DNA of 34,426 nucleotides from Polaribacter sejongensis (GTDB lineage Bacteria > Bacteroidota > Bacteroidia > Flavobacteriales > Flavobacteriaceae): NCBI GenBank assembly GCA_949545755.1, contig CATITK010000006.1:1-34426 (forward strand). The letters are read 5' to 3'. This document shows positions 26,804 through 30,172 of the stretch, piece after piece. A model generated the notes under the pieces. That model was not told where the DNA came from. It saw only the letters and a list, made by a program, of their open reading frames with translations, and made no database searches. The translations under genes were made by a program, and so were the position numbers. Position 1 is the first letter of the stretch. Each line of letters opens with the position of its first letter.

Positions 26804-28573
26804 CTAAATTTCGTCTCCTCTGATTGTTCTGTATTTTTTCCGGGCATCTACCAAATAAATACTGGAAGAATGTTCAAAAATAATCTTTTGATAGTATTCT
26901 GATGCTTTTTCTGGACTTTTTAAATGATTTTTGTACAATTCTGCTAATTCATAATAGGCATCATCAATTAAAATACCTGTTGGATTTAACGAGATTACTT
27001 TTTCAAAATTAATAATTGCAGCTTCATATTGGTTTATTTTGAGGAACAGTTTTGCTTGTTTAAAAAGGGCTTCATCTTCAATAGGCTGCCCTTTGAAATT
27101 TTTATTGATAACACTCAAAGTGTCAATGGCTTGTTGTGTTTTGTTCTGAAAAGATAATAGTGCTGCTTTGGAATATTGTATCAACCCAGAAGGAATCTCA
27201 TCTACAGGTTCATTGTCTGTTATGATTAAAAACAAGGCTAGCGCATCATTAGCAATCAATTGTGTCGTAGCACTTTTTAGCACTTTTAATTGTGCTTTCG
27301 CCCAAGGAAAATCGCCTTTAAAGTAACTTGTTTGTGCCACTTTAAAACGCGCTTGTTGCCCTAGTTCATGGTTTTTAAGTTGGGTTTGAATTTGAGAAAA
27401 ATACCGTAAGGCCTTGTTGTACTTTCCTATGAAAACTAAAATATCTCCTAACTTTAATTTTATCCTTGCTTTATCAAATTTTGAGTGAGAAAAAACCAAT
27501 GCCTTTTCTAAAACATCTTTGGCTTCATAAGGCTTGTTTAGATGAAACGTTAAAAAATCAGCGTAAGCTACCTGTAGTTTTATCGTTAGTTTATTTTTAC
27601 CAAATTCGTTAAATAATGATTGAAACAATTTTTCTGTTTCAGGGATATTATTGGTAGCACTAATTTTTGTAAGGAATAAAAAAGCCTCAATTTTCTCTTC
27701 CTTTAAGGTTGTTTTTTGCGTGATAAAAGAGAAACATTCTTTCGAGGTAGTATAATCTTTATTTTCAAAAGCTATTTTCCCTAAGCTATAAATAGCACTC
27801 AAATCTGTTGGATTTCTTTGATACAATGCTTTTTCTTGTACCAACGCTTTTTGGTAGCTTTTTTGTTGCGTAAACAACCAGCTTAACAAGACGTTCCAAA
27901 CATCTTTTGGGTTACTCGCAGATTTTCTTAACAGTGTTTTTCTGAAGATGATATTGGCTTCATTTTCTGCATTATCAGTAATATATTTACTCGTATATCT
28001 TTGAACGATATTTAAATTTCCTTCTTTTTTATCTACCAGTTCAACATAGGATTCAAACATTTTTCTAAGCGCGCCTTTTTCTCCATAAATCTGTGCAATT
28101 TGAAAACTATAATTAGCATTTTCATTTTTTGCCATTACTTTTTCATAAGCTAAAATAGCTTTGTCTAAAAGGCTGTAGTTTTTAAAAATAAGCCCTATTG
28201 TTCCGCCATAGGTGCTTCTCTTGTCAATAGATGCCAATGCGAAATCATAATTCTTCTTAGCCAATTCCATGCGTTGTTGTCGCTCATAATTATAGCCTAA
28301 ATAGACATATAAATAACTTTGATGTGGATTTTTCTTCAATTTAGATTTTAATAGCTTTTCGGCCTCTAAAAATTGTTGAGTCTCTTGATAGCAAGAAATT
28401 AATCGGCTTAAATAAGTCGTATTAAATGTGCTCTTGGAATATAATTTTTTAAAAACTTCTGTTGCTTTTTTATAGTCCCCTTCTCTATAGTAGCTTTCTC
28501 CCAATAAATAATCATTTTGAGCGTAGCTAAAGCTAGTAATCGTAAGAAAAATAAGCAAACAAAGTTTTTTCAT
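26804..28573 (-). CDS. Exported tetratricopeptide-repeat protein
   Basis: 589 residues with a signal peptide (1-18, SYA|QND). TPR-like helix pairs run through most of the length. Examples are LLGESYYREGDYKKATEVF near the start, YVYLGYNYERQQRMELAKKN, AIYSLGKIAFENKDYTTSKE, and ALFKQAKLFLKINQYEAAI towards the end. The last repeat, DDAYYELAELYKNHLKSPEK, resembles those in BamD/YbgF-type periplasmic proteins. TPR arrays bind partner proteins; the partner is unknown. An exact TATCTTTG promoter is only 6 nt upstream of the ATG. It probably leads the operon with DUF4286, rsmA and mgtE. Confidence 0.85.
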   Translation of the reverse strand: MKKLCLLIFLTITSFSYAQNDYLLGESYYREGDYKKATEVFKKLYSKSTFNTTYLSRLISCYQETQQFLEAEKLLKSKLKKNPHQSYLYVYLGYNYERQQRMELAKKNYDFALASIDKRSTYGGTIGLIFKNYSLLDKAILAYEKVMAKNENANYSFQIAQIYGEKGALRKMFESYVELVDKKEGNLNIVQRYTSKYITDNAENEANIIFRKTLLRKSASNPKDVWNVLLSWLFTQQKSYQKALVQEKALYQRNPTDLSAIYSLGKIAFENKDYTTSKECFSFITQKTTLKEEKIEAFLFLTKISATNNIPETEKLFQSLFNEFGKNKLTIKLQVAYADFLTFHLNKPYEAKDVLEKALVFSHSKFDKARIKLKLGDILVFIGKYNKALRYFSQIQTQLKNHELGQQARFKVAQTSYFKGDFPWAKAQLKVLKSATTQLIANDALALFLIITDNEPVDEIPSGLIQYSKAALLSFQNKTQQAIDTLSVINKNFKGQPIEDEALFKQAKLFLKINQYEAAIINFEKVISLNPTGILIDDAYYELAELYKNHLKSPEKASEYYQKIIFEHSSSIYLVDARKKYRTIRGDEI

Positions 28574-28579
28574 CTAATT

Positions 28580-28587
28580 CAAAGATA
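28580..28587 (-). promoter_or_regulatory. Promoter -7 element (TATCTTTG) abutting the TPR gene start
   Basis: The minus strand reads TATCTTTG, with only 6 nt to the ATG at 28573. A leaderless or nearly leaderless transcript is implied if this element is used. Confidence 0.5.
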
Positions 28588-28650
28588 AGTAAGAAAAAGT
28601 TTAAAATATTATTAAATCTATCAATTTTGAGCGGTTCCTTTGAAAGGTTC

Positions 28651-28666
28651 TGGCACAAAAATTGAC
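28651..28666 (+). promoter_or_regulatory. Sigma-54-like (-24/-12) promoter
   Basis: CTGGCAC-AAAAA-TTGAC: TGGCAC at 28651-28656 and TTG at 28662-28664 with the correct 5-nt spacer. The -24 GG to -12 step is 12 bp. The consensus TTGC is TTGA here. A transcript would start near 28677, about 18 nt before the small ORF at 28695. Confidence 0.5.
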
Positions 28667-28694
28667 TACACTATAAGTGAACTAACAAATTAAG

Positions 28695-28841
28695 ATGATG
28701 AGAGATTTTAAAAACCAATACGAAATTGCAAAACACAATTCAAAATTTTTTATGAAAAACGGACAAATTAGTGCTTATTTGAAGGCGCTTTTAATAATGA
28801 ATAAATACAAAAGACTAATGGTCGTTGTTGTTGCTAATTAA
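28695..28841 (+). CDS. Small 48-residue protein of unknown function
   Basis: An ORF too short for ordinary ORF calling: ATGATG at 28695, stop at 28839-28841. The product MMRDFKNQYEIAKHNSKFF..., with a helix-forming Lys-rich middle (GQISAYLKALLIMNKYKRL) and a hydrophobic end MVVVVAN, has no signal peptide. I do not recognise a characterised family. Small proteins of this appearance seem to recur in Flavobacteriaceae, but I cannot check that here. Support comes from a well-spaced sigma-54-like promoter ending about 30 bp upstream and from isolation between two minus-strand operons, where no other gene accounts for this sequence. A weak hairpin (28855-28863 with 28872-28880) follows the stop. 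Confidence 0.6.
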   Translation: MMRDFKNQYEIAKHNSKFFMKNGQISAYLKALLIMNKYKRLMVVVVAN

Positions 28842-28854
28842 TTTTAGTTGATGT

Positions 28855-28880
28855 TTTTTGGTAAAATGATCTACCAAAAA
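28855..28880. terminator. Weak hairpin after the small ORF
   Basis: TTTTTGGTA pairs with TACCAAAAA over 9 bp with an 8-nt loop. It lies 14 bp after the small ORF stop and 18 bp beyond the serS stop, but no clean T-run follows on either strand. Confidence 0.3.
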
Positions 28881-28897
28881 CCAACAATAAAAAAGGA

Positions 28898-30172
28898 TTA
28901 ACCAATAAAATCAAACCCACAATAAGGTACTAATACTTCTGGTATTTTAATTCCTTCTTTTGTTTGATAATTTTCTAAGATTCCAGCTAAAACCCTCGGT
29001 AAAGCTAAAGAACTTCCATTTAAGGTGTGCGCCAATTCGCTATTTCCTTCCTTGTTTTTAAAACGAAGTTTCAACCTATTTGCTTGAAATGTTTCAAAAT
29101 TTGAGGCAGAACTAATTTCTAACCATCGGTCTTGTCCTGCAGAAAATAATTCAAAGTCGAAAGTTAATGCAGCCGTAAAACCAGTGTCTCCACCACATAA
29201 GCGTAAAATTCTATAAGGCAACTTTAATTCTCTTAAAATATCTTTAATGTGTTCTACCATGCCGTTTAAAGCAGCATAAGAAGTCTCAGGATGTTCAATT
29301 CTTACAATCTCTACTTTGTCAAATTGATGCAACCTATTTAAACCACGAACATGGGCGCCATAGCTGCCTGCTTCTCTTCTAAAACAAGGTGTATATCCCG
29401 TAACTTTTATGGGGAAGTCTGCTTCGTGCATTAAATTGCCACGAAACATATTTGTAATTGGAATTTCTGCAGTAGGAATCAAGTACAAATCGTCTTCCGT
29501 ACAATGATACATTTGCCCATCTTTATCTGGCAATTGACCTGTAGCGGTTGCAGAAGCTTCATTTACTAAATGTGGAACTTGCACTTCAGTATACCCAGCT
29601 TTTGTGTTTTTATCTAAAAAATAATTGATTAATGCACGTTGTAATTTTGCACCTTTTCCTTTATAAACAGGAAAACCAGCACCCGTAATTTTGTTTCCTA
29701 ATTCAAAATCGATGATGTCATATTTCTTTGCTAGTTCCCAATGAGGAAGTGCGTTTTCTCCCAAATTAGGAACCAGTCCTTCTTTAAAAATTTGCTCATT
29801 ATCTTCTTCAGAGGTTCCAGCATTTACCGAAGTATGAGGAATGTTTGGAATTTGAAACAATAAGGTTTGTAATTCGTATGCATACTCCTGTAATTTTTCT
29901 GCAAGCGCTTTCGATTTTTCTTTTAACTGACCTGTCTTTTCTTTTAATAATGTTGCTTTTTGTGCTTTTCCAGATTTAAAGAAAGCGCCAATTTCTTTAG
30001 ACATTTTATTAGACTCAGACAATGTATTGTCTAGCTGAACTTGCGTTCCTCTTCGATTTTCATCAGCAGTTAAAACTTGTTCAATGATACGTTCAGCATT
30101 CGCAAAATTACGTTTTGCTAATCCTTGTAAAACAGCTTCTTTGTGATCTCTAATAAATTGTACTTGTAACAT
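28898..30172 (-). CDS. serS: Seryl-tRNA synthetase
   Basis: 424 residues, typical. It charges serine onto tRNA-Ser and, in most bacteria, tRNA-Sec. The N-terminal arm is a long antiparallel coiled coil (about 25-105), which reaches the tRNA variable arm. The class II core shows YLIPTAEIPITNMF (TAE serine-binding loop), motif 2 in CFRREAGSYGAHVRGLNRLH, and motif 3 in ISSASNFETFQANRLKLRFK. The exact promoter element TATCTTTG lies 21 nt upstream. Confidence 0.97.
   Translation of the reverse strand: MLQVQFIRDHKEAVLQGLAKRNFANAERIIEQVLTADENRRGTQVQLDNTLSESNKMSKEIGAFFKSGKAQKATLLKEKTGQLKEKSKALAEKLQEYAYELQTLLFQIPNIPHTSVNAGTSEEDNEQIFKEGLVPNLGENALPHWELAKKYDIIDFELGNKITGAGFPVYKGKGAKLQRALINYFLDKNTKAGYTEVQVPHLVNEASATATGQLPDKDGQMYHCTEDDLYLIPTAEIPITNMFRGNLMHEADFPIKVTGYTPCFRREAGSYGAHVRGLNRLHQFDKVEIVRIEHPETSYAALNGMVEHIKDILRELKLPYRILRLCGGDTGFTAALTFDFELFSAGQDRWLEISSASNFETFQANRLKLRFKNKEGNSELAHTLNGSSLALPRVLAGILENYQTKEGIKIPEVLVPYCGFDFIG

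Follow-up and report, generated by a model that had tools for sequence, protein, structure and literature searches.

A small basic two-helix protein gene of Polaribacter sejongensis and its probable sigma-54 promoter, with relatives across Bacteroidia

The window analysed here, a whole stretch of 34,426 nt from Polaribacter sejongensis, quite probably contains a real gene of an undescribed family, with a sigma-54 box that travels with the gene and a product that would be stress-inducible. Sequence comparison gives this sigma-54 reading, jointly with the existence of a family of basic helical-hairpin proteins of 44–52 residues in Bacteroidia, a good probability. No description of the small-protein family was found in the open full-text literature searched. 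The gene and the features around it are listed in Table 1.

A sequence-only reading of this DNA had placed a sigma-54-like promoter with -24/-12 geometry before a 48-codon ORF, in a gap of more than 300 bp between minus-strand neighbours. The box is present as TGGCACAAAAATTG, the sole exact match to TGGCAC-N5-TTG in the whole window, and the gap measures 324 bp. If one mismatch is allowed, four sites in the window fit the pattern where chance would give 5.2; taken by itself within one window the box is therefore not significant, and its statistical weight comes from the comparison with relatives. The ORF translates from 28695 as claimed (48 codons plus stop), but its start has to be moved: the extra ATG at 28695 is absent from most relatives, and the alignment with homologues puts the start at 28698, the second ATG, which gives 47 residues. 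Start sites, both for this holoenzyme and for the second one discussed below, follow from spacing rules, by which transcription from the box would be expected to begin near 28676–28677.

Table 1. Features of the small-gene locus in the window.
Feature	Position	Strand	Basis or remark
TPR-repeat protein, 589 aa, divergent neighbour	26804..28573	-	Pfam; present in 78/80 loci
Gap between flanking minus-strand genes	28574-28897	.	324 bp; ORF alone in gap
AT-rich block TTTAAAATATTATTAAA (relatives approximately GTTAAATTTTTATTAAA)	28600..28616	.	column conservation -49 to -34 from box
ECF-type promoter position	28641..28667	+	decayed in window: TGAAAG-N17-GACT, 3 mismatches
Putative sigma-54 -24/-12 box TGGCAC-N5-TTG	28651..28664	+	exact match; conserved in relatives
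Small basic two-helix protein ORF, 47 codons + stop	28698..28841	+	homologues, alignment, structure model
Hairpin between ORF and serS	28847..28888	+	-12.1 kcal/mol, z -3.2; without T-run of classical terminator
Seryl-tRNA synthetase serS, convergent neighbour	28898..30172	-	Pfam; present in 79/80 loci

Homologues of the ORF were retrieved by query search in 31 of the 36 genomes of the genus, the window's own counted, and in none of 23 genomes from other families of the order. A first profile of 16 rows matched 22 of 397 genomes of the window's family; one match interrupted by stops (L132) was dropped, which left 21 genomes in 13 genera and 376 genomes with no homologue by this profile. Among named genomes, a scan located 105 places that encode the protein, and 80 were kept. 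They are assigned to Polaribacter, Tenacibaculum and Lutibacter, to unclassified flavobacteria and to at least two 'Flavobacterium sp.' assemblies; Polaribacter sp. isolate AH-578-A01 is the nearest (98% identical). Altogether, 129 family loci were reduced to 115 distinct ones by removing duplicates, and L112, a copy of the window, was left out; counts over these loci refer to loci related by descent, not to independent events. Two matches that we judged to be chance ones in longer frames (L261 and L263) were also dropped. Two genomes of the same genus, G008 and G018, have neither the gene nor the box at the corresponding place. Thirty serS loci elsewhere were checked for a hidden homologue: box and ORF occurred together only in L222, already a known homologue, a search of 900 nt in each of the other 29 gave no box, and a repeat with the profile returned L222 alone, besides a 22-residue chance match in L231 (E 0.007).

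The reading frame is conserved in the way expected of a protein. Median dN/dS was 0.21 (3,034 pairs with dS 0.1–1.5, from 108 ORFs of 141 nt), and variability at codon positions 1, 2 and 3 was 0.60, 0.42 and 1.14 bits of entropy. Judged by these substitution patterns, the small ORF is a protein-coding gene under purifying selection.

The box is kept with the gene throughout the window's family. The 70 nt ahead of the homologous ORF contain a strict pattern, TGGCA[CT]-N5-TTG, in 105 of the 115 distinct loci and a slightly looser one in 106, with a TTG-to-ATG distance of 31–36 nt in 104 of these 106. In 80 of the loci (L032–L111), 483 further ORFs with a length of 100 aa or more served as a control, and none was preceded by either pattern; base shuffles of the 115 upstream regions produced the looser box in 0 of 11,500 cases. 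With one representative per group of less than 70% identity, the strict box was still found in 22 of 26. At three loci (L121, L124 and L130) serS is not adjacent to the small gene, yet the box is retained. Sigma-54 promoters in general have the consensus TGGCAC-N5-TTGC; the box shares their sequence, geometry and distance to the gene and differs in the base after TTG, which is C in general and mostly T here (88% of 106 aligned near loci), where it also serves the -10 element GTCT of a second promoter.

Ten of the 115 near loci fail the strict box; L026–L028 have neither promoter half, and L013, L125–L128 and L131 have the ECF half only. In L026, L027 and L028, which belong to the same genus, the ORF is kept, both promoter halves are lost and a shared AACAACGA-N3-AACCCC stands before the ATG instead. 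The gene for sigma-54, rpoN, was detected in the window's own genome (E 1.8e-51) and in 54 of 56 genomes searched, the two misses being genomes 57% and 67% complete. The missing boxes are not explained by a missing rpoN: all ten genomes whose locus fails the strict box (G007, G010, G013, G014, G026, G083, G203, G295, G310 and G387) have rpoN, and sigma-54 control is thus not obligatory for the gene.

Genome-wide, TTTGGCAC-N5-TTG occurred at 52 sites against three for the reversed control in eight genomes, and the strict pattern was hardly enriched in five other genomes (22 against 15 in the control). The protease gene lon is also preceded by a sigma-54 box in one relative (L188). Two recurrent arrangements were observed among the other sites. 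In L175, L178, L179, L183, L186 and L187, two strict boxes about 650 bp apart lie beside a lipoprotein-like gene with YDLWYVDYH, and only the first of each pair directly precedes an ORF. In L173, L288, L290 and L294, from several genera, a box precedes a lipoprotein-like gene that has CGTYQ or CGSYQ close to its start; this box is TTTGGCACAAATATTG in two of the four and a close variant in the others.

Relatives at the level of the class were found by protein profile alone, so the box before them is an independent test. A wider profile run on 395 class genomes gave 28 hits, of which 24, from 24 genomes, lie outside the family. Three hits (L285–L287), none of them boxed, were discarded in our judgement as chance stretches in longer frames, and 21 plausible relatives remain, spanning six families (f20, f24, f48, f67, f76 and f89), with 13 of the 21 from a single genus. 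The strict box precedes 15 of them and the looser one 19, at 30–40 nt before the ATG, and five of the six families are boxed. In four relatives (L252, L278, L283 and L284) TGG replaces TTG at the right spacing; the two without any box, L258 and L259, come from one family. As a control, 132 other ORFs from these 21 loci, each 80 aa or longer, were examined, and none was preceded by the strict or the looser box. Neighbourhoods differ between families: the TPR gene and serS flank the gene in the window's family, and a nadD-like motif or other genes lie nearby elsewhere. The nadD-like motif occurs within the 3-kb locus in 14 of the 21 relatives (L253, L255, L260, L262, L274–L277 and L279–L284), and its vicinity is perhaps the ancestral place of the gene. 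Sequence comparison thus places the box with the gene in differing neighbourhoods. Conservation of the frame and of the box upstream of it, which the sequence-only reading had left to be checked, was found in both cases, and its claim of a sigma-54 promoter ahead of a short protein gene is supported by sequence comparison and by the rpoN of the same genome.

In one class-level relative, L252, the gene immediately upstream encodes a response regulator that contains a sigma-54 activator domain (PF00158, E 1.2e-70, Pfam). The protein could accordingly be imagined as a feedback modulator of sigma-54 transcription that binds an enhancer-binding protein or the RNA polymerase–sigma-54 complex and damps or sharpens the response, by analogy with PspA, which acts on PspF in such a feedback manner. 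The co-occurrence of gene and box in several families is in keeping with this idea, but the adjacency at L252 is a single one, the neighbours differ between families, and no activator turned up when the 3-kb loci of the 21 class-level relatives were scanned for a motif. That scan proves nothing for the remaining loci, because it also missed the activator that Pfam detects in L252. We consider a modulator of this kind unlikely.

AlphaFold2, run with 39 sequences, confidently predicts the product to be a two-helix hairpin, with helices at residues 2–21 and 24–46 (mean pLDDT 95, pTM 0.71). The median pI of 115 members is 9.6, and nine members of one remote genus reach 10.0–11.7. The window protein has no match to any Pfam, NCBIfam or PHROGs model. 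No solved structure proved convincingly related: the best sequence match in the PDB (E 0.00029) covers 12 residues of a kinesin light chain, and no single stretch passed by itself, while a fold search of the PDB, which was uninformative, gave 166 matches, none at E ≤ 0.001. No phage or plasmid origin was found in PHROGs, among phages or among plasmids, the last queried with one class-level relative.

DUF6435 (PF20027), which we take to be the Lacal_2735-like small proteins, likewise comprises short Bacteroidota proteins of unassigned function. Of the 28 members of A4, eight match PF20027 weakly (best E 0.001), and the lengths are similar. A place for the protein within DUF6435, as a divergent member, is nevertheless very unlikely, and we rejected the assignment: the window protein has no PF20027 match, profile comparison indicates no relationship to the family described here (1–2% probability, against 90% for relatives from genus g264), no sigma-54 box precedes any of the 28 DUF6435 ORFs resolved from 30 loci (L313 and L324 left out), and the genome that contains the window carries a distinct DUF6435 gene on a different contig.

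In most near relatives the sigma-54 box lies inside a second promoter-like element, which the sequence-only reading had overlooked. TGTAAC-N17-GTCT with at most one mismatch was found in 94 of the 115 loci, against 17 of 11,500 shuffles. The box lies inside it in 88 loci, and the offset from TGTAAC to TGGCAC is exactly 10 nt in all 88; 18 further loci have the sigma-54 half only, six the ECF half only and three neither. In L125–L128 and L131 the 17-nt spacing is intact despite the loss of TGGCAC. At the window itself the ECF position carries three mismatches, and therefore only the sigma-54 half is intact. With its -35 TGTAAC and -10 GTCT 17 nt apart, the element resembles ECF promoters of the TGTAAC/CGTC type, presumably Bacillus SigX-like; it differs in having T rather than C before GTCT and in a spacer that contains the sigma-54 box. 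For Flavobacterium psychrophilum, SM6 is reported as an ECF-type motif with CGT as its -10 box (PMC9723704). In most of the near relatives the sigma-54 box sits within the ECF-type -35/-10 element and shares its G (TTGTCT), and since the nested promoters share this G, the two holoenzymes could start from nearly the same base.

Genome-wide, TGTAAC-N17-GTCTW had 89 sites against 28 in the control over eight genomes, and in G083, which has the ECF half only at this gene, the ECF pattern hardly exceeded the control, with 11 against nine. In six genomes searched with both patterns, an ECF site falls on five of the 36 sigma-54 sites; the five come from five different genomes, and all are at the small-protein gene. 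By eye, TGTAAC...GTCT is absent at the listed sigma-54 sites of other genes, and we rejected it as a general part of sigma-54 promoters. The 30 loci with the ECF pattern that we looked through by eye include genes for ABC transporters and for exported proteins or small membrane proteins, and at two of the 30 (L199 and L213) the site precedes a gene resembling an ECF sigma factor. Small membrane-type proteins of 52–56 aa follow TGTAAC-N16-CGTCT sites in L200, L203 and L210.

The constant offset in 88 of 115 loci and the six loci with the ECF half only could also be read to mean that TGGCAC-N5-TTG is no sigma-54 site at all but belongs to the spacer of an ECF promoter and owes its conservation to something else. 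We regard this as extremely doubtful, as 18 of the 115 loci keep the box without the ECF half, and a search of 100 nt at each of the 19 boxed class-level relatives gave no TGTAAC-N16-18-GTC.

A stable hairpin is predicted between the ORF and serS, with no terminator-like site found there. This hairpin (z -3.2), a short unit behind a conserved promoter and a sigma-54 promoter of F. psychrophilum that also serves a putative regulatory RNA (PMC9723704) could suggest a regulatory RNA with an incidental ORF, but that is hardly credible given that third codon positions vary most, that dN/dS is low, that protein profiles retrieved the relatives in other families, and that Rfam returned no family, its two matches being far below gathering scores and on the other strand. 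The AT-rich block upstream of the box could belong to the promoter of the divergently transcribed TPR gene or be bound by an activator of the small gene; it is indistinct in several divergent or moved copies.

The sigma-54 regulon of F. psychrophilum is among the closest comparisons (PMC9723704). There, sigma-54 promoters precede groES-groEL, lon, dnaK, grpE, htpG, clpB and gliding genes, and motif SM4, which corresponds to the sigma-54 regulon, also includes envelope genes (PMC9723704). The likeness lies in -24/-12 promoters in a flavobacterium and in one operon with two promoters of different sigma type; in that operon, remFG-sprCDBF, the two start sites are 94 bp apart, whereas the promoters are nested in the near relatives studied here (PMC9723704). 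The printed selection in Table 2A of that report names no such small protein, though it has entries of unknown function (PMC9723704).

The product is most likely a microprotein of the cytosol, induced by stress within the sigma-54 response of Bacteroidota. An enhancer-binding protein would switch the gene on as part of the flavobacterial sigma-54 response to protein-quality and envelope stress, and in many species an ECF sigma factor would provide a second input, which would have been lost in the window. The product would stay in the cytosol, perhaps pairing into a four-helix bundle, and, given its small size and hairpin fold, might act by binding a larger partner; we hold these steps less firmly. 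The role of the protein is judged here from its charge and its company. Its charge makes the ribosome or other RNA–protein machinery our tentative first guess for the partner. Feedback on sigma-54 or RNA polymerase comes second, at a low probability, and a role as adaptor of a protease or chaperone is ranked alongside it.

A box-bearing small gene across families would provide a clean reporter of the sigma-54 pathway and a candidate effector or regulator, in a phylum in which, from the literature found, sigma-54 seems little studied. The nested promoter, at one spacing in 88 loci and with single halves elsewhere, is a natural series for two holoenzymes sharing a site. A broader picture, to which we give a rather low probability, is of a microprotein widespread in Bacteroidia as a standing output, possibly a feedback regulator, of the sigma-54 response; in one clade it would be driven by a nested sigma-54/ECF promoter, where two unrelated holoenzymes would contend for one stretch of DNA and initiate at almost the same position. 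If true, the gene would read two stress pathways through one site.
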